From positions 3,347,001 to 3,411,000 of the forward strand of contig NZ_CP047656.1 of the NCBI RefSeq assembly GCF_009906955.1: a stretch of DNA of 64,000 bases. Reading direction: 5' to 3'. The notes under the pieces were generated by a model. That model was not told the origin of the DNA. It did not search any database and saw nothing but the letters and a program-made list of their open reading frames with translations. Shown here one piece after another: positions 31,907 to 41,785 of the stretch. Origin of the DNA: Paraglaciecola mesophila. Lineage in GTDB: Bacteria > Pseudomonadota > Gammaproteobacteria > Enterobacterales > Alteromonadaceae. The first letter of the stretch is position 1. Every line of letters begins with the position of its first letter. A program made the position numbers and the translations under genes.

Positions 31907-33232
31907 CTACTTGGGGTAGCGCGCCTTGCGCATTGCGCGGTCAACTAAGCGTTGGGCATTGTTTAGGGCTTGCTCAACCGTCATCTTCCCTGCTAAAGCG
32001 GCAGAGAATTGCTGACCGACTGCCGTGCCAATCCCTTGAAACTCTGGGATAGCGACAAATTGCACGCCCACATAAGGTACCGGCTTTACGGTTGGGTTTT
32101 TCGGATCGACTGACTCAATAGAGGCAAGGGTGATTTCAGCAAAAGGTGCGGCTTCCATGTACTTGGGGTTTTCATACAATGACGTACGCGTACCTGGCGG
32201 AACGGCTGCCCAACCTTTTTCTTTGGCGACTAAAGCTGAATACTCTTTTGACGTCGCCCAGCTGATGAACTTTTGCGCGGCATCACTTTTTTGACTGCTT
32301 GATGGTACGGCTAAGGTCCATGCCCACAACCAGTTGCCGCGTTTTCCAAGTCCGTTATCTGGTGCCATTGCAAAGCCGACTTTGTCAGCCACTTCGGAGT
32401 CTTTTTTGTTAGTCACAAATGCGCCTGCTACGGTGGCATCTATCCACATGCCGCATTTGCCTGTTTGAAACAACGCAAGGTTTTCGTTGAAGCCGTTTGA
32501 TGATGCACCAGGAGGGCCTGATTCTTCCATCACATCAACATAATATTGCAGGGTGTCTTTCCACTCTTGGGTATTGAATTGTGGCTTCCAGTTTTCGTCG
32601 TACCAGCGGGCCCCAAAGGAGTTAGACATAGCGGTGATAAGCGCGGTATTTTCACCCCATCCCGCTTTACCGCGTAAGCATATACCGTAAACACCGGCTT
32701 CTTTGTCGGTCATGGCTTTAGCGGCTTGGCGAATGAACTTCCAGCTTGGCTTAGTGGGCATGTCGAGACCGGCTTTTGCTAGCAAATCAGTACGGTACAT
32801 GACCATCGAGCTTTCACCGTAGAAGGGGGCGGCATAAAGCTTGTCGTTGATGGATAAACCGCTACGAATGGCAGGTAAAAGATCCTCTTCATCGTAGTTT
32901 GGCCCTAAGCCGTCAAGCTCAGTTAGCCAGCCTTGTTTACCCCAAATCGGTACTTCATACGTGCCTATGGTCATTACGTCATACTGGCCGCCTTTGGTCG
33001 CTACATCAGTGGTAACGCGTTGACGCAAGATATTTTCTTCTAGTGTGACCCATTGAAGGTCGATGTCAGGATGCTTAGCTTCAAAATCTGTGCTGAGCTC
33101 CTTCATGGTGATCATATCGCCGTTGTTAACGGTTGCGATGGTGATGGTTTCAGCACTTGCTGAAGTACTGACGGTTAATGCAGCGCTTATGCTAAGCGCG
33201 GTACAAGTTGCTATCGTTATTTTTTTCAACAT
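31907..33232 (-). CDS. Polyol (mannitol/sorbitol) ABC substrate-binding protein
   Basis: A 441-residue periplasmic family-1 solute-binding protein with a signal peptide ending near SASAETI (residue about 28). Its text closely follows the SmoE/MtlE family: ITMKELSTDFEAKHPDIDLQWVTLEENILRQRVTTDVATKGGQYDVMTIGTYEVPIWGKQGWL, and MNLF-type FYGESSMVMYRTDLLAKAGLDMP, TGKCGMWIDATVAGAFV and RGNWLWAWTLAVPSSS. The match to this polyol-specific family makes mannitol, sorbitol or arabitol likely ligands; the exact one is not decided. Confidence 0.93.
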   Translation of the reverse strand: MLKKITIATCTALSISAALTVSTSASAETITIATVNNGDMITMKELSTDFEAKHPDIDLQWVTLEENILRQRVTTDVATKGGQYDVMTIGTYEVPIWGKQGWLTELDGLGPNYDEEDLLPAIRSGLSINDKLYAAPFYGESSMVMYRTDLLAKAGLDMPTKPSWKFIRQAAKAMTDKEAGVYGICLRGKAGWGENTALITAMSNSFGARWYDENWKPQFNTQEWKDTLQYYVDVMEESGPPGASSNGFNENLALFQTGKCGMWIDATVAGAFVTNKKDSEVADKVGFAMAPDNGLGKRGNWLWAWTLAVPSSSQKSDAAQKFISWATSKEYSALVAKEKGWAAVPPGTRTSLYENPKYMEAAPFAEITLASIESVDPKNPTVKPVPYVGVQFVAIPEFQGIGTAVGQQFSAALAGKMTVEQALNNAQRLVDRAMRKARYPK

Positions 33233-33341: not shown

Positions 33342-34754
33342 TTAAAACTTAACTGAAATCTCAGACGTGATGCCGTCAAAGCCTGCGCCAATTTGGCCAC
33401 CAGAGTTGATGCCTTCGTCTTGGTCAACATATTCAACTTTCAATAAGGTTCTATCGTTGAACCAGTAACCTGCGGCAACCTGCAAACGTTCAACTGTGTT
33501 ATCCGTTTGAGCAATGAGGTCAGAAGTGTTTTCGGCTTCCCCGTAACGGGCAGCAAGATAGAATTTACCTGGAATAATGTAGTGCTGCGCTTCTACCGTC
33601 CAATACTCAACAGATGACTCTCCTTTGATGACTCTGTTGGAATCAAATGTTGTTCCGTCAGGGTCGGCTACGCCATCGGTGCCGAAGTAAGTAATCCCTG
33701 CCACCGCGTTACCTTGTGTATCTGCAAAGGTATAATCATCACTTGATTGTCCTAGCATCAAAATAACGCTGGTATCTGCGTTCGGTTGATAAGCTAAGTT
33801 TAGTTGAATGGTTGTTTGGTCAAGACCCGGCATAATACCGACGTGAGTATCACGCTCACTGCTAGGAGAAGCAGAGAAGTTGTAGTTTTCTCCGTCACCG
33901 AAGCGATAGTTTGTGGTGGTGAGTCCGTCAAGGCTGGCAACACCATTTTCGAAACGTAGCTGGTCGCCTTGATTGGCTTGTAAGAAGTTTAAACCGACTT
34001 TGAAACCGCCAGTGAACTCTAATGTACCTTGTAGTAAATAGTTAAAGCCACGATCTTCTTGAAAAGCCTCACCAAAGCTTGAGGTCGTAATGTGACCCGT
34101 GACGTTATAGGCTCGTAGAACACCGCTATCGAATCGCTCGTTGTAGCGCAATTGGGCACCGTTTTCTGCGGTGGCATAGTCGGTCATCCAGTTACCAATA
34201 AGTGCATTGCCTTGGTTGTCTGCCCCGTCTTGAAAGCCTTTAAACTGAAAGGGTGAGCCGCCAATGTTACCTAAGCGAAGTGTTAGGTCAGCGTTTTCAC
34301 GTTTGTATTCTGTTAGCCCAAATACGTCAAACTCGATACCTGCATAGTCATTGTGAAACGAGAAGTCTCTGTCACCATTGTTACCAAAGTCATTCGGCTC
34401 TTCGGCAATATCGATATCTGCTGTGATGTACTCGTTAATATGAAACTTAAACATTAAGTTGGCTCTGATACGGCCAAAACCAGCTGATTGCTCTTCATCT
34501 ACTGGGCGAAAAGCCCCTTCTTTAGCCTGAATCGACTGATAATTTTGCATGGCTAAAAAATTGACATCCACTAAACCATCAAGGAATGAAGCGGCGTTAA
34601 CAGGGGCTGATGCGGTCATAACAGCGGCAGCTACTAGGCCTACTTTGCTAAAAAGTGATACTGATCGGGCATGACTCGCCGTTACGTTAGATTCGTTGTG
34701 AAAGCGTTTGGCGGCTGTTGAAACTAGTGTTGTCTGTATGTTTTTTAACATCAT
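33342..34754 (-). CDS. Outer-membrane porin of the polyol operon
   Basis: A 470-residue outer-membrane barrel: long signal peptide (basic N-terminus, hydrophobic VGLVAAAVMTASAPVNAA ending near residue 54), many alternating amphipathic strands and a C-terminal Phe (ISVKF) as the BAM signal. It resembles OprB/phosphate-selective-type porins but no tight family match was made. First gene before the binding protein and ABC genes; its likely job is polyol or oligosaccharide entry across the outer membrane. AGGACA precedes tandem ATG codons. Confidence 0.82.
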   Translation of the reverse strand: MMLKNIQTTLVSTAAKRFHNESNVTASHARSVSLFSKVGLVAAAVMTASAPVNAASFLDGLVDVNFLAMQNYQSIQAKEGAFRPVDEEQSAGFGRIRANLMFKFHINEYITADIDIAEEPNDFGNNGDRDFSFHNDYAGIEFDVFGLTEYKRENADLTLRLGNIGGSPFQFKGFQDGADNQGNALIGNWMTDYATAENGAQLRYNERFDSGVLRAYNVTGHITTSSFGEAFQEDRGFNYLLQGTLEFTGGFKVGLNFLQANQGDQLRFENGVASLDGLTTTNYRFGDGENYNFSASPSSERDTHVGIMPGLDQTTIQLNLAYQPNADTSVILMLGQSSDDYTFADTQGNAVAGITYFGTDGVADPDGTTFDSNRVIKGESSVEYWTVEAQHYIIPGKFYLAARYGEAENTSDLIAQTDNTVERLQVAAGYWFNDRTLLKVEYVDQDEGINSGGQIGAGFDGITSEISVKF

Positions 34755-35492: not shown

Positions 35493-37538
35493 ATGTTGTT
35501 TAGAACCATCAAAAGCACCACGACCATGCTTACCGTCGTCGCCATTTCTTTGGTGTGTGCTGCGGTTGTTGTTTTTTCAATTGAAGAATATGAAAGACTT
35601 TATTTAGAGACAACCAGTAGTGACTTAGACGGTTTATCAGAAAATATGGCTAATGATCTTGTTTCTTTGATTGCATTGGAGCCGGACGTATTTGAAGTTA
35701 CGACCACGTTGCTGCGCTTAGATCGCTACGAAAACGTTAAGTTCGCTGTGGTTTATGACAACGAATGGCAGCGCATTAACCTGTACTTTGGCCCTCTATT
35801 CGATCCTTATGATTTTGAAGAGGATGTGCAGCTAAGCGAACTACAAAATCGCGAATTTGGTGTGTCGGTCAAAGACGGGGAACTGATTGCACTCAAACTG
35901 GTAGGGGATACTCGCTTACCCTTAGGCTATTTACTGATAGTGAACGACTCAGTTGGGCCTTTAAACAAAAGTAAATTGACCTTATTGAAACGCGTATTAC
36001 CTTTAGTCTTGCTGGTGTTGTTTATTGCGATTGTGGGGTCGCTGATGATTCAGCGAAAACTCTTTTTACCATTGAGCCGCTTGTCGCGCTTAGCGCAAAA
36101 AATTTCTCAAACCCATGATTACTCCCTCAGAATAGACATTCGTGGTAAACAAGAAGTGGCTGAATTAAGCCGTGATATCAACAGTATGATGGAAACCATC
36201 AGTAGCGAGACCGAGAAAAACAGCGAATACACCCAGCAATTAAAAGAGCAACAAAAAACCATGGAGCGTTTGGCTAACTTTGATAGCTTAACGGGCTTAC
36301 CTAATCGTCAATTTTTCATGGAAACCTTGCGTATTGAGTTGGCAAAAGCGAAACGTGATAAGCGTAATCTGGCGCTTATGTACTTTGATCTTGATGGATT
36401 TAAAGGCATTAACGATTCTTTTGGGCATGAAATTGGTGATTTGCTGCTGCTTGATGTTTGTCAGCGTACGAAAACCTTTTTACGCGAAGGGGACTTAATC
36501 TCTCGGTTAGGGGGAGATGAGTTTCTAATTTTGTTGCACAACGACCCTGATGACATCATGTTATTTGAAATATCCGAGCGCATTGTAAATGGCTTAAGTA
36601 AGCCGTTTGAAATCCAATCTTGGGAAATGCAAATTGGGGTGAGCATTGGTATTGCTCGTGCCAGCGATTCACATTTCAATGTGAGCGAATTTATCAGTAA
36701 TGCTGATATTGCTATGTACCGTTCTAAAATGGCGGGGCGAAGCACCCACACTGTTTTTGTACCCGATATGATGGAAGACAACAAGCGCCGCCTCTTGGTG
36801 GCAAATTCTATTTCTAGCGGTATCAAAAATGATGAATTCACAGTGCACTACCAAGCTAAAGTCGCTCCAGATGAAACTGTAGTGGGTTACGAAGCCTTGA
36901 TCCGCTGGCATAGCGAACAACTGGGTTTTGTGTCTCCTGCTGAGTTCATTCCAATTGCGGAACAAAGCGGCAAGATTTTATCAATCACTAAGTGGGTTAT
37001 TCAGCAAATCTGCGAAGAGTTAAACCAATTGCTGGGTTTGCATGAGGGCAGTGTGGTGCTGTCTGTGAACCTTTCAGCGCACGATATCAACAATGCCTCG
37101 TTGGTGGATTACATTCGAGCCATGTTTGAGAAATACAAGGTGGATACTTCATGTATTGAATTTGAAGTCACAGAATCTGCTTACTTGGAAAACTTTGATG
37201 TTGCTAACCAGTTTCTAAATCAAATCCGCGATATGGGCTGCTCAATCGCTCTTGATGATTTCGGGGCAGGTTATTCGTCACTGGGTTATTTAACGCAAAT
37301 TCACTTAAATACCTTGAAAATCGACAAGCAGTTTGTAGATAACTTGAATGTCTCTAAACGCAGTACTTTGGTCACCAAAACCATTATCGAAATGGCGAAG
37401 CAACTCAATTTACATATTTGTGCCGAAGGGGTAGAAACACGAGAGCAGGCAGATTTCTTAATTGCCAATGGCTGTCATCAGTTGCAAGGGTACTTATTTT
37501 CAAAGCCCATGAGTCTGCAAGATATTTTGGCTAGTTGA
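35493..37538 (+). CDS. Membrane GGDEF-EAL cyclic-di-GMP enzyme with periplasmic sensor
   Basis: A 681-residue inner-membrane protein: TM1 (about 6-28), a periplasmic sensor of about 140 residues (CHASE8-like: MANDLVSLIALEPDVFEVTTTLLRLDRYENVKFAVVYDN), TM2 (about 170-190), HAMP, GGDEF with intact GGDEF at 340-344 and RLGGDEF context, and EAL with E467-A-L, DDFGAGYSSLGYL and KIDKQFVDNL. Both catalytic sets look intact, so it may make or break c-di-GMP. The ATG at 35493 is preferred (GAAAGGGATAG upstream) to the in-frame TTG at 35472. Its last 8 bases overlap the convergent periplasmic-protein gene. Confidence 0.93.
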   Translation: MLFRTIKSTTTMLTVVAISLVCAAVVVFSIEEYERLYLETTSSDLDGLSENMANDLVSLIALEPDVFEVTTTLLRLDRYENVKFAVVYDNEWQRINLYFGPLFDPYDFEEDVQLSELQNREFGVSVKDGELIALKLVGDTRLPLGYLLIVNDSVGPLNKSKLTLLKRVLPLVLLVLFIAIVGSLMIQRKLFLPLSRLSRLAQKISQTHDYSLRIDIRGKQEVAELSRDINSMMETISSETEKNSEYTQQLKEQQKTMERLANFDSLTGLPNRQFFMETLRIELAKAKRDKRNLALMYFDLDGFKGINDSFGHEIGDLLLLDVCQRTKTFLREGDLISRLGGDEFLILLHNDPDDIMLFEISERIVNGLSKPFEIQSWEMQIGVSIGIARASDSHFNVSEFISNADIAMYRSKMAGRSTHTVFVPDMMEDNKRRLLVANSISSGIKNDEFTVHYQAKVAPDETVVGYEALIRWHSEQLGFVSPAEFIPIAEQSGKILSITKWVIQQICEELNQLLGLHEGSVVLSVNLSAHDINNASLVDYIRAMFEKYKVDTSCIEFEVTESAYLENFDVANQFLNQIRDMGCSIALDDFGAGYSSLGYLTQIHLNTLKIDKQFVDNLNVSKRSTLVTKTIIEMAKQLNLHICAEGVETREQADFLIANGCHQLQGYLFSKPMSLQDILAS

Positions 37539-37950
37539 TTTGATACACAACAGTGAGTTCATCAGGTAAGGGCATTCCTGCTGGTAAATAGCCAATAGAG
37601 CCCTGGTGGGTTTTTAAGTACTCTAAAACTTGCTGCTCATTGTTGATTTCTTTCGGTGCCTTTTTACGTCCAGTAAAGCGCATTTGTGCCCAATATGACT
37701 GAATGCGCGATTCCGTTAGCCCCACCACTTTGGTGTTAAATAGCACGCGGGTGTGATTTTCTGGCGGTAGCGCCACAGCGTTTAAATCATAGGACAAAGC
37801 CCCGCCCATGAAGAGGTTACGCACTTGTTGGCGGGTTAATTGGATTGAGGCGTCAGGCGTGTTGGCCACAATAATGAGCGCGTCATTTGCCATAGCCGTT
37901 TTAACGGGGCCAAGAAAACAAAGTATCAGTAAGTAGAGGTATCTATTCAT
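37531..37950 (-). CDS. Short periplasmic phosphate-binding-like protein, copy 1
   Basis: A 139-residue secreted protein (signal peptide ending near AMANDA). It resembles one lobe of PstS-type binding proteins: IIVANTPDASIQLTRQQVRNLFMGG, ENHTRVLFNTKVVGLTESRIQSYWAQMRFTGRKKAPKE, and a C-terminal SIGYLPAG. At about half the family's length it cannot form a full two-lobe clamp. Its ATG overlaps the barrel gene's stop as TGATG, so the two are coupled. The alternative upstream start (37962) would lie inside the barrel gene. Copy 2 at 40164 is nearly identical across the middle. Confidence 0.88.
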   Translation of the reverse strand: MNRYLYLLILCFLGPVKTAMANDALIIVANTPDASIQLTRQQVRNLFMGGALSYDLNAVALPPENHTRVLFNTKVVGLTESRIQSYWAQMRFTGRKKAPKEINNEQQVLEYLKTHQGSIGYLPAGMPLPDELTVVYQIN

Positions 37951-39149
37951 CAAAATACCCACTCTAGACCAAGCTGATACAAGATGGCGCTGCCGTCAAA
38001 GTTTCCTAAGTCTCGCAGGGTAAAATCACCACTGATTTTTTCATCGGCGTCAATATGCGTCGCTTCTGCTTTTAAGGCGACGTTTGAGCGCCAATCCCAG
38101 CGTATACCAATTTTAGTGCCAGCAGATTTATCATCTAAGAATCCATTTGTAACGGCTACATAGCCGCCAGCAAGTGCATTTAGCTGATCGGATACGCCAA
38201 ATGGTATTTCATTTTCTGGGTGGTTATAGTAAAGGTTACGCTTGCTGTACGAAAGGTACACAGTATAAGGGTAAAAGTTATAACCTACTGAAACATAGAA
38301 ACTATCTATATCTGGTACCGGGCCACTTTCCCCTTCCATTTTAGCGATTTCACTGCGCAGAAAGTAATTTAAATCTTCATAATTAACACTGAATTGATAA
38401 AACTGAATCAAGCCGTCAGGGTCTAACCAATCAGCACTCCGCTCGAACCCTACTTGCCTCAACTGTTCGCCAAATTGGCTTGCGCTTAGTAGGGTTAATT
38501 CAGTATTACCTTGGTTATATGAAGCTCTGGCGTTCCAGTTTTTCCATGTGACGCTGGTGTTAAAACCAAATAGCCCAGTTACTTTGGTTTCAACGCCGCC
38601 GTCAGGGGAGTAAATATCATCGTCGTAATACCCCCAATACCCTTCAAGGTTGATGAGTAGTACGGAAACAGGAAACTCGTAGTTTGCCAGTAGCCCTTCA
38701 AAGGTTGAGAAGAATGATGTTTCGTAAAATTGTTTTGGTAGGGTGAGCCAAGGATACGCAAAGCCCACATCAAGGCTGTCACTGTAGTTAAAAAAAGGAA
38801 GACGTTGTTTGCCTAATTTTACTTGAAAAGCCTTGTTCGGTTTGTAGGTTACGTAAAGCCATTCTAGCCCTGATTCACGTCGTTCATTTGTATGGCCGAC
38901 TAATTGACTGGTGAGCGATATTGTATCACTAAACTGGTAATCCGCTTGTAAGCCTAATAGTGACTGCTCGCCTAAACTAATGCTGTTGTCATAACCTGCA
39001 TACTCAGCATTACTGTCATCTAAGTAGCCCATGATTAGGCGCGCAAACCCCGAAAATTGCAATTTGTCCTCTGTTTGCGCATTCGCAAAACAAGCATAGC
39101 TGCTTAGGATAATAAAAGCGGTGAGAGCGGGCCTAAAGAAGTACGTCAT
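37950..39149 (-). CDS. Outer-membrane porin-like barrel, copy 1
   Basis: A 399-residue predicted outer-membrane barrel with a signal peptide (to about residue 24, CFANAQTED), repeated amphipathic strands such as LQFSGFARLIMGYLDD and LEWLYVTYKPNKAFQVKLGKQRLPFFNYSDSLDVGFAYPWLTLPKQFYETSFF, and the terminal aromatic ending LEWVF. It starts near LQFSGFAR typical of porin-like proteins. It precedes and is coupled to the periplasmic protein. The barrel at 40583 is its paralogue. Confidence 0.85.
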   Translation of the reverse strand: MTYFFRPALTAFIILSSYACFANAQTEDKLQFSGFARLIMGYLDDSNAEYAGYDNSISLGEQSLLGLQADYQFSDTISLTSQLVGHTNERRESGLEWLYVTYKPNKAFQVKLGKQRLPFFNYSDSLDVGFAYPWLTLPKQFYETSFFSTFEGLLANYEFPVSVLLINLEGYWGYYDDDIYSPDGGVETKVTGLFGFNTSVTWKNWNARASYNQGNTELTLLSASQFGEQLRQVGFERSADWLDPDGLIQFYQFSVNYEDLNYFLRSEIAKMEGESGPVPDIDSFYVSVGYNFYPYTVYLSYSKRNLYYNHPENEIPFGVSDQLNALAGGYVAVTNGFLDDKSAGTKIGIRWDWRSNVALKAEATHIDADEKISGDFTLRDLGNFDGSAILYQLGLEWVF

Positions 39150-39346
39150 ATATTGGTTAATTCAGATTGATAACTGTGTGAAATGCAACATCTTTGTATT
39201 AAAAATACTCGAGGATGGCTAAGAGTCAAATTCTTTTCTGTTTATCTTTACGGGGGAGCGCTTCGTTATCCAGCAAAATGGGTCGAAACAGGGGTTTATT
39301 CAAGATAGGCTAGTACGCATTCAAGTTAGTTGTAAGCAAACATACT

Positions 39347-40111
39347 ATGCTTTTTTTCAGTAGTGAGTTGGTCAGTCCTGGGTTGTCTTTATTGTTAATC
39401 ACTCTCGCTGGCTTCACCTCTTTTTTAACCGCAGCGATGGGCGCTGGTGGTGGGTTGTTATTGTTAGTTGTCATGGCATCATTTCTGCCAATGGCGGTTG
39501 TTATTCCTGTGCACGGCTTAGTACAGTTGGGCTCAAACGCGAACCGTATGCTACTGACTTACCGTCATGTTGATATCAGTATGTTGCTGTATTTTGTGGC
39601 TGGTGGCTTGATTGGTGCGCTCATGGCATTCTTTGTGGTCAGTGATGTACCGCTGGATTGGATGAAATTGGCTGTTGGCGGGTTTGTGTTATTTTTGTTG
39701 TGGGGGAAGAAACCTAGCATCAAAGAATCAAGCCCGTTCGGTAAGGCGTTGGCGGGACTGAGCACGACTTTTTTGTCTATGTTTGTCGGCGCAAGTGGCC
39801 CATTAGTTGGTAGTTATTTACACACCAAGGGCTACGATAAAATGCGTTTTACTGCGACGTTTTCGTCTAGCATGACCATACAGCATACCCTTAAAGCATT
39901 AGTGTATGGGATGGCGGGTTTTGCATTTTGGCAATGGTTGCCTTTAGTCATAGCCATGATCGCAGCGGGTGCCGTCGGGACTTGGCTTGGCCTAAAACTG
40001 TTGCATAAAATTCCTGCCGAACGGTTTCAACGAATGGTGCAAATTACCTTATCTGTATTGGCGCTGAACTTGATGTGGCAAGCAGTAAAAGCGTTGTCTT
40101 GGTCGCACTAA
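39347..40111 (+). CDS. TauE/SafE (TSUP) family permease
   Basis: A 254-residue, seven- or eight-TM anion permease of the TauE/SafE (TSUP) family: AAMGAGGGLLLLVVMASFLPMAVVIPVHGLVQLGSNANRMLL in the first half and SMFVGASGPLVGSYLHTKGYDKMRFTATFSSSMTIQHTLKALVYG in the second, showing the two-fold repeat. Family substrates are sulfite, sulfonates or small organic acids. It lies between the two copies of the barrel/periplasmic-protein module, in the opposite direction. No strong ribosome site is seen before ATG. Confidence 0.92.
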   Translation: MLFFSSELVSPGLSLLLITLAGFTSFLTAAMGAGGGLLLLVVMASFLPMAVVIPVHGLVQLGSNANRMLLTYRHVDISMLLYFVAGGLIGALMAFFVVSDVPLDWMKLAVGGFVLFLLWGKKPSIKESSPFGKALAGLSTTFLSMFVGASGPLVGSYLHTKGYDKMRFTATFSSSMTIQHTLKALVYGMAGFAFWQWLPLVIAMIAAGAVGTWLGLKLLHKIPAERFQRMVQITLSVLALNLMWQAVKALSWSH

Positions 40112-40163
40112 TGCGTTTAGCGGGTCGTGGTGCGGCCCAAATTACAATGCCAATCGAATTATC

Positions 40164-40583
40164 TTATTGCACGGTAAAAATAACAGATAAGCCGTCAGGA
40201 ATAGGGGTACCAGCAAGCAAGTAGCCTACGGCACCTTCGTGGCTTAGAAGATATGCCAGCACTGACATTTCGTCTTCGACTTCTTTAGGGGCTTTTTTAC
40301 GGCCAGTGAAGCGCATTTGCGCCCAGTAGGATTGAATTCGCGACTCTGTTAACCCAACTATCTTTGTATTGAACAACACTCGGGTGTGGTTTTCCGGGGG
40401 GAGCGCAATTGCCTTTAAGTCATAGGGCATGATGCCACCCATAAATAAGTTTCGTACCTGTTGACGATTGAGCTCGATAGATTTATCGGCCGTATTTGCG
40501 ACCACAATAATCGATTCTGCCGCAGCGATAGAGGGCGTGAAGCTAAACAAGAAAAGCAGCATTAAGGTAGTATACACTTTCAT
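40164..40583 (-). CDS. Short periplasmic phosphate-binding-like protein, copy 2
   Basis: A 139-residue paralogue of the 37531 protein. Signal peptide ends near SIAAAES; RQQVRNLFMGG and ALPPENHTRVLFNTK and VGLTESRIQSYWAQMRFTGRKKAPKE are unchanged, while the N- and C-terminal parts diverge (IIVVANTADKSIEL; LLSHEGAVGYLLAGTPIPDG). The conserved middle probably forms the ligand or partner face. The start codon overlaps the barrel stop (TGATG), the same coupling as in copy 1. Confidence 0.88.
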   Translation of the reverse strand: MKVYTTLMLLFLFSFTPSIAAAESIIVVANTADKSIELNRQQVRNLFMGGIMPYDLKAIALPPENHTRVLFNTKIVGLTESRIQSYWAQMRFTGRKKAPKEVEDEMSVLAYLLSHEGAVGYLLAGTPIPDGLSVIFTVQ

Positions 40584-41785
40584 CAAAATACCCACTCCAC
40601 TGCGAGTTGGTACAAGATTGCATGACCGTCAAACCCGCCTAAATCTTTGACTGCATAATCATTACTAATATCGTCTTGGGCTTGAACAAAGGTCATTTCC
40701 GCTTTAAACGCGATATTAGGTTGCCAATCCCAGCGTGTGCCTAATTTAATCCCGGTGGCTTTATCATCAGCAAAGCGCCCTATAACGTCAGCGTAGGTCG
40801 CTGCCAAAAAATCGAGCTCTGGGCTTACACCCAAGGGGATCTCACTGGGGCGATGATCGAAATGCAGGTCTTTTTGGCTATAGGAGATGTAAAATGTATA
40901 AGGGTAAAAATTGTAGCCGGCAGAAATATAAAAGCTTTCAATGTCAGCGACTAAGCCGCCGTCGCTGACCATTTTAGACACCTCACTGCGCAGGAAATAG
41001 TCTAGGTTCTCGTAGTTTGCACTCAATTGATAAAACTGAATAAGCCCATTTGCATCAAGCCATTCGGCGTTATTGGCAAATCCAAATTGGCGTAATTGCT
41101 GACTAAACAGACGCGCCTCTTCTTGCTCTATGTTTACATCACCTTGATTATACGAAGCGCGCAGCGTGAGGTTTCTATAAGCAAAGCTCGTGTTGAAACC
41201 AAATAACCCAATCACCTGAGTGTTAATTTCTTCACTTGCTAAATATATTTTATCGTCAAAACGGCCCCAGTACCCTTCATAGTTGATTAGCCAATCGTTA
41301 TGCACAAATTGGTAGTTCGCTAAAACACCATCAAAGGTTGAAAAAAATGCGGTGTCGTAAAATTGTTGCGGCAGGGTTAGCCAAGGGTATGCAAAGCCTA
41401 CATCTAGGCTGTCGCTGTAATTAAAGAAAGGAATGCGCTGCCTACCCAGTTTAATTTGTAATGCATTGCTAGGGGAATACGAAAGGTATAACCACTCTAA
41501 ACCAGAATTGCGCTGATCATCAGTAAAGCCAACTACTTGGCCAGTCACCGACAATGCATCGCTAAATAAATACTCGGCTTGAAGTCCGAACAGAGATTGT
41601 TGGTTAGCGCTGATGCTGTTGTCGTAACCCACATACTCAGCATTTTCGTCGTCCAGGTAGCCCAAAATTACCCGAGCAAAGCCGGAGAATTGGAGTTTAT
41701 CCTCTGTTTCAGCGTGAAGCGTGGGCGCAACGCACAGTAACATTAACCAGCAGGCGAGAAATAAGTGGGGTGATCTGCGCGTCAT
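40583..41785 (-). CDS. Outer-membrane porin-like barrel, copy 2
   Basis: A 400-residue paralogue of the 37950 barrel, matching along its length: LHAETEDKLQFSGFARVILGYLDDENAEYVGYDNSIS, LGRQRIPFFNYSDSLDVGFAYPWLTLPQQFYDTAFFSTFDG, ending VEWVF. Signal peptide in residues 1-25. Divergence between copies is mostly in predicted loops. First gene of the second barrel/periplasmic-protein pair; no other gene follows in the transcript. Confidence 0.85.
   Translation of the reverse strand: MTRRSPHLFLACWLMLLCVAPTLHAETEDKLQFSGFARVILGYLDDENAEYVGYDNSISANQQSLFGLQAEYLFSDALSVTGQVVGFTDDQRNSGLEWLYLSYSPSNALQIKLGRQRIPFFNYSDSLDVGFAYPWLTLPQQFYDTAFFSTFDGVLANYQFVHNDWLINYEGYWGRFDDKIYLASEEINTQVIGLFGFNTSFAYRNLTLRASYNQGDVNIEQEEARLFSQQLRQFGFANNAEWLDANGLIQFYQLSANYENLDYFLRSEVSKMVSDGGLVADIESFYISAGYNFYPYTFYISYSQKDLHFDHRPSEIPLGVSPELDFLAATYADVIGRFADDKATGIKLGTRWDWQPNIAFKAEMTFVQAQDDISNDYAVKDLGGFDGHAILYQLAVEWVF

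Follow-up and report, generated by a model that had tools for sequence, protein, structure and literature searches.

The window analysed here is a stretch of 64,000 nucleotides from contig NZ_CP047656.1 of the marine bacterium Paraglaciecola mesophila. Between positions 35493 and 41785, it carries a gene for an inner-membrane enzyme of cyclic di-GMP (c-di-GMP) metabolism and two copies of a gene pair, each encoding an outer-membrane barrel and a short exported protein corresponding to one lobe of the phosphate-binding protein PstS (hereafter half-PstS). We consider it fairly probable that this locus is a trans-envelope signalling module in which two pairs feed one enzyme; from the arrangement and conservation of its parts, we infer that half-PstS contacts both the barrel and the sensor domain of the enzyme, and that the enzyme is regulated in this way. 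Relatives of the pair stand beside c-di-GMP enzymes or chemoreceptors in many bacteria, and the pair therefore probably represents an undescribed trans-envelope signal route, most simply read as a cassette that connects a selected transducer with the outer membrane.

The enzyme gene (35493..37538, plus strand, 681 aa) overlaps tail to tail by 8 bp (37531..37538) with the gene for half-PstS copy 1 (37531..37950, minus strand, 139 aa including a signal peptide), which is joined by a TGATG at 37948-37952 to the gene for barrel copy 1 (37950..39149, minus strand, 399 aa). The second pair is built likewise, with half-PstS copy 2 (40164..40583, 139 aa) and barrel copy 2 (40583..41785, 400 aa) on the minus strand, joined at 40581-40585. 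A check of the open reading frames (ORFs) reproduced the coordinates and layout that an earlier sequence-only reading had given for the enzyme and both pairs. The window proteins were searched against Pfam and NCBIfam. Both barrels exceeded the Pfam cut-off of 27 bits for Porin_4 (32.2 bits, E 1.3e-7, for copy 1; 40.2 bits, E 4.7e-10, for copy 2), and with a signal peptide and an aromatic C-terminus (EWVF) they have the features of porin-like barrels; no NCBIfam model scored above its cut-off for the short proteins or the barrels. The N-termini of the short proteins and barrels are hydrophobic, compatible with export. With an inner-membrane enzyme, an exported one-lobe protein and a Porin_4 barrel, the three-compartment layout proposed earlier is supported.

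Conservation of this neighbourhood in Alteromonadales had been set beforehand as a test, and it was strongly borne out, also beyond that order. In a scan made with half-PstS alone, the barrel, half-PstS and a GGDEF-EAL protein with the same sensor occurred together at 39 of 48 loci, spanning Alteromonadaceae, Colwelliaceae, Pseudoalteromonadaceae and Oceanospirillaceae, and some c-di-GMP enzyme lay within 3.5 kb at 43 of the 48. The genes were mostly convergent, divergent in Oceanospirillaceae (L050-L052, L061, L069) and co-directional at L046; since the neighbours stay the same through three orientations, their adjacency outlives rearrangement. The number of pairs per enzyme varies from one to four, with two to four in Paraglaciecola relatives and one in most other genera. 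A search with the sensor only gave 43 places in 38 of 148 genomes of the family, of which 26 were beside a pair and 17 were not, as judged by comparison of coordinates. In a tree of 61 enzymes, the 44 neighbours of a pair spanned four families, and 13 of the 17 non-neighbours formed a separate subfamily. At L106-L108, L110, L112, L115, L116 and L118, a subfamily of this sensor-GGDEF-EAL protein stands in a different conserved neighbourhood, with a membrane protein that has a start like LGSLRQLTLxSF and the look of a histidine kinase, and with a small protein beginning ELATAAL in its core.

Beyond these close relatives, half-PstS proteins were found in 118 of the 148 family genomes and in 58 of the 229 genomes of a class-wide sample, as well as on plasmids, including those of Pseudomonas aeruginosa and Caballeronia. 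A barrel gene on the same strand adjoins 142 of the 152 half-PstS genes examined; half-PstS constantly has the barrel as its partner, with an inner-membrane partner that differs between loci. A c-di-GMP enzyme lay within 3.5 kb at 77 of 126 half-PstS loci compared with 2 of 58 control ORFs, and any transducer at 94 of 126 compared with 13 of 58; kinases are probably undercounted, because the transducer calls rest on few seed sequences. The pair is also accompanied by chemoreceptors and other transducers and hence lacks specificity for c-di-GMP. Four-gene operons of the form barrel-half-PstS-GGDEF-EAL occur at L085, L088, L093, L124, L127 and L156, and in such an operon a GGDEF-EAL gene often comes after that for the HAMP-PAS-GGDEF protein found beside the pair. 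Other partners are Cache-GGDEF-EAL proteins of the dCache_3 type (L084) or the dCache_1 type (L221, L222), chemoreceptors (L138, L140 twice, L150, L154, L231) and, at L146, a hybrid histidine kinase. In their tree, half-PstS proteins group according to the type of partner, with 7 changes compared with 17 in shuffles. Two further pairs lie in the same genome as the window: near 2,933,400 (L084), half-PstS and barrel in reverse order are followed by an overlapping dCache_3-GGDEF-EAL gene (829 aa), and near 2,451,600 (L083), the gene that follows a barrel and half-PstS on the same strand encodes a small membrane protein of 192 aa. On the Alteromonas mediterranea plasmid MRG65-300 (L234), half-PstS adjoins the type IV CRISPR genes csf1, csf2, csf3 and csf5, together with a hypothetical gene downstream of it whose product has the size of a barrel (386 aa).

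In some genomes, half-PstS is the C-terminal part of a fusion with a degenerate J-like domain, one transmembrane helix and a long linker, a layout that resembles TonB. This fusion is conserved in one genus, with one similar fusion in a further genome; the type at L212:3231-4937 was kept in 8 of the 12 genomes searched in its family, and the second type is at L211:3241-5265. A barrel-like gene encoding a C-terminal Phe (ending QWAF(L/M/I)xF) comes after the fusion at all seven of the loci checked. Among the matches listed in the family of the window, where the largest open frame was 223 aa, half-PstS was nowhere fused to a chemoreceptor or to a protein with a GGDEF domain.

The short protein had been described as a half-length, one-lobe phosphate-binding-like protein, and its predicted fold supports this, being that of PstS domain 2 without domain 1, so that the two-lobe architecture of PstS is absent. 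An AlphaFold2 model based on an alignment with 71 relatives (predicted local distance difference test score, pLDDT, 93.6) matched this domain in 1twy (Foldseek E 8e-5) and in 4gd5 (Z 12.4, root-mean-square deviation 2.1 over 103 residues). At the sequence level, the best Pfam match was a sub-threshold one to PBP_like_2, and a profile search gave a weak match to the PstS-type protein 4exl (E 0.001). The fold is shared with PstS, whereas the residues of the PstS phosphate loop (Arg and Ser-Gly-Ser/Thr) are replaced in half-PstS, as seen in the alignment and its column counts; the loop segment NRAAGSGSRATF of 4exl pairs with ALPPENHTRVLF in the family of the window protein. The most conserved residues (R68, F71, G77, E80, R82, Y86, W87, A88, Q89, M90, F92 and G94) lie mainly in two helices that follow the position of the phosphate loop, and this clustering suggests that the two helices form a protein-binding face.

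In the enzyme, HAMP, GGDEF and EAL domains were found above the Pfam cut-offs, and transmembrane helices at about residues 6-34 and 160-194 enclose a periplasmic domain. The EAL domain had been noted as intact, in agreement with the presence of all its catalytic motifs (EAL, NLS, EVTES, DDFGAGYSS, KID and EGVET), and the GGDEF domain retains GGDEF, FDLDGFK and the I-site REGD. The GGDEF motif and the EAL glutamate were retained in 39 of 39 homologues and the I-site in part of them only. The enzyme probably both makes and breaks c-di-GMP. The sensor (residues 1-190, pLDDT 86.7) was predicted to contain a long N-terminal helix and a PAS-like sheet between the two transmembrane helices, the arrangement of a PDC/sCache domain, and its model matched WalK, CitA (1p0z) and the LapD orthologue CdgS9 at Z 10.8-14.4, with LuxQ chains also listed; no Pfam Cache model matched it. 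It had been called CHASE8-like. In the Pfam search, CHASE8 (PF17152) did not match the window protein, and only 5 of 40 homologous sensors matched it weakly (best E 0.00078), so that the name was a fair guess and does not denote membership; on the predicted structure, the sensor is PDC/sCache-like and only distantly CHASE8-like.

The proposed mechanism would run as follows. The outer-membrane barrel would admit or bind a cue, or report the state of the outer membrane, and the one-lobe half-PstS would carry the state of the barrel across the periplasm and dock on the enzyme in the inner membrane, at its PDC/sCache-like domain. Docking would shift the balance of the enzyme between its GGDEF (making) and EAL (breaking) activities, and the two pairs present here, or up to four in relatives, may offer alternative inputs to one enzyme.

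Solute-binding proteins are established as signalling inputs, stimulating chemoreceptors, kinases and c-di-GMP enzymes (PMC9602780); as far as we found, a one-lobe protein of this kind that partners an outer-membrane barrel is undescribed. No published description of the set of barrel, half-PstS and GGDEF-EAL protein was found in the open-licence literature searched, which is weak evidence of novelty because only open-licence papers were covered. LuxP-LuxQ likewise places a binding protein on a PDC-type sensor, as the LuxQ chains among the structural matches recall, but LuxP has two lobes, LuxQ is a kinase and the system is not known to include a barrel. In Xanthomonas citri, XAC2383-XAC2382, reportedly described by Teixeira et al. 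in 2018, is said to pair a periplasmic receptor with a diguanylate cyclase; the binding protein is reportedly full-length, and the pair is not known to include a barrel. The NspS-MbaA system shares with the window a periplasmic protein of solute-binding fold and a transmembrane GGDEF-EAL enzyme with a periplasmic domain; NspS, however, is a full two-lobe PotD-like protein in contrast to the single lobe of 139 aa here, and the described system has no outer-membrane barrel. In Vibrio cholerae, NspS controls MbaA and sets its balance of synthesis and degradation (PMC8967002), and by analogy the pair in the window probably sets the balance of c-di-GMP making and breaking by its enzyme, as NspS does for MbaA and YfiR for YfiN.

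More tentatively, the pair may be a widely used, undescribed outer-membrane sensory cassette that plugs into different inner-membrane transducers by direct protein contact: enzymes that synthesise or hydrolyse c-di-GMP, chemoreceptors, hybrid kinases and a J-domain protein resembling TonB. Few systems, YfiBNR among them, are known to bring outer-membrane cues to inner-membrane c-di-GMP enzymes or chemoreceptors. If the proposal is correct, signals from the outer membrane would reach cytoplasmic second-messenger or chemotaxis pathways through direct contact, and the recurrence of the pair beside several classes of transducer would amount to a general, testable signal route.

Several observations weigh against a signalling module. 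The gene order is convergent, and the enzyme is therefore not co-transcribed with the pair in the window. Three nested GGDEF-EAL homologues occur without a pair, at L103, L104 and L105. By the count within 3.5 kb, the frequency of chemoreceptors (17 of 126 loci compared with 4 of 58) does not clearly exceed background; their association rests on tight operon spacing. The control was small (20 stretches, 58 ORFs), and the loci are phylogenetically related or clustered. As to sampling, groups B and C of the neighbourhood count were taken down a ranked list and not at random, and group D was not unbiased, since 5 of its 20 stretches (L211-L215) were picked for unusually long reading frames. Separately, at L103 and L105, the place of the pair downstream is taken by genes for an EAL protein of 769 aa and an exported protein of 223-230 aa.

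At 32 of the 126 loci, the 3.5 kb around half-PstS contain no recognised transducer, which also counts against signalling and would suit an alternative that we regard as unlikely though worth weighing. In this alternative, the barrel would be a porin specific for one substrate, with half-PstS as its accessory (a plug, gate, assembly factor or handover protein); the substrate would double as an attractant or biofilm cue, which would explain the nearby signalling genes, and there would be no contact between the proteins. The constancy of the barrel as partner of half-PstS would likewise fit this explanation. It does not readily account for the same GGDEF-EAL protein keeping its place beside the pair in four families and in three orientations, for a half-PstS tree that sorts by transducer type, or for the fusion that ties half-PstS to an inner-membrane protein.

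It is very improbable that the locus is a divergent YfiBNR system with half-PstS as YfiR, the barrel as YfiB and the enzyme as YfiN. YfiBNR (DgcN-YfiR-YfiB) occupies the same three compartments and likewise has a periplasmic protein and a HAMP-GGDEF enzyme whose periplasmic domain is PAS-like (PDC); YfiR acts on the periplasmic PAS domain of YfiN, and this domain was modelled on CitA 1p0z (PMC3375315), which is among the matches of the window sensor. However, YfiR is a DUF4154 protein with conserved cysteine pairs (PMC3375315, PMC4887326), whereas half-PstS is a PstS lobe whose mature copies 1 and 2 contain no cysteine; YfiB is a Pal-like lipoprotein and not a Porin_4-type barrel of 399-400 aa; and YfiN lacks the EAL domain of the window enzyme. 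With hhalign, the 71-sequence half-PstS profile did not match Escherichia coli YfiR (probability 1.1%, 5 columns), nor was there a profile match to the sensor region of YfiN (probability 2%), and homology to YfiR and YfiN was dropped for lack of a profile match. DUF4154 was absent among the Pfam matches; YfiR structures were also absent among the 50 structural matches listed for the half-PstS model, which is no evidence by itself. Strict YfiBNR membership thus fails for the two outer parts, which the sequence-only reading had already assigned to families other than those of YfiR and YfiB; a likeness in mechanism is possible.

We also regard as highly unlikely a role of half-PstS in high-affinity uptake of phosphate or another oxyanion, as its PstS-like fold and the database name of its relatives, 'phosphate ABC transporter substrate-binding protein', would imply, given that only one lobe is present, the Arg and Ser-Gly-Ser loop is replaced and no ATP-binding cassette (ABC) permease or ATPase gene adjoins the pairs in the window. 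If the signalling reading is right, it would correct this misleading name on the short proteins. Chance proximity, conceivable in genomes with so many GGDEF genes, has next to no probability and is refuted by the conserved neighbourhood in the close and wider sets and by the enzyme tree.

Within the window, the two half-PstS copies are 63% identical and the two barrels 60%. The earlier observation of a duplicated pair with an almost unchanged middle block was right as to the second copy; the block, however, is a core conserved throughout the family and bears no mark of recent copying. Among core codons for the same residue, 35 of 57 differ synonymously between the half-PstS copies, as do 19 of 27 fourfold sites, and this divergence speaks for an old duplication whose copies have been under purifying selection. 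On the same grounds, gene conversion of recent date was rejected. A gene for a TauE/SafE-family permease, identified by Pfam, lies between the two pairs (39347..40111, plus strand) and, in the neighbourhood comparison, accompanies the cluster in several Paraglaciecola, either inside it or next to it; it probably does not belong to the module. On the opposite strand (31907-33232 and 33342-34754), immediately upstream of the enzyme and outside the module, are genes for two exported proteins, a sugar ABC substrate-binding-like protein and a 470-aa protein that is porin-like in appearance.

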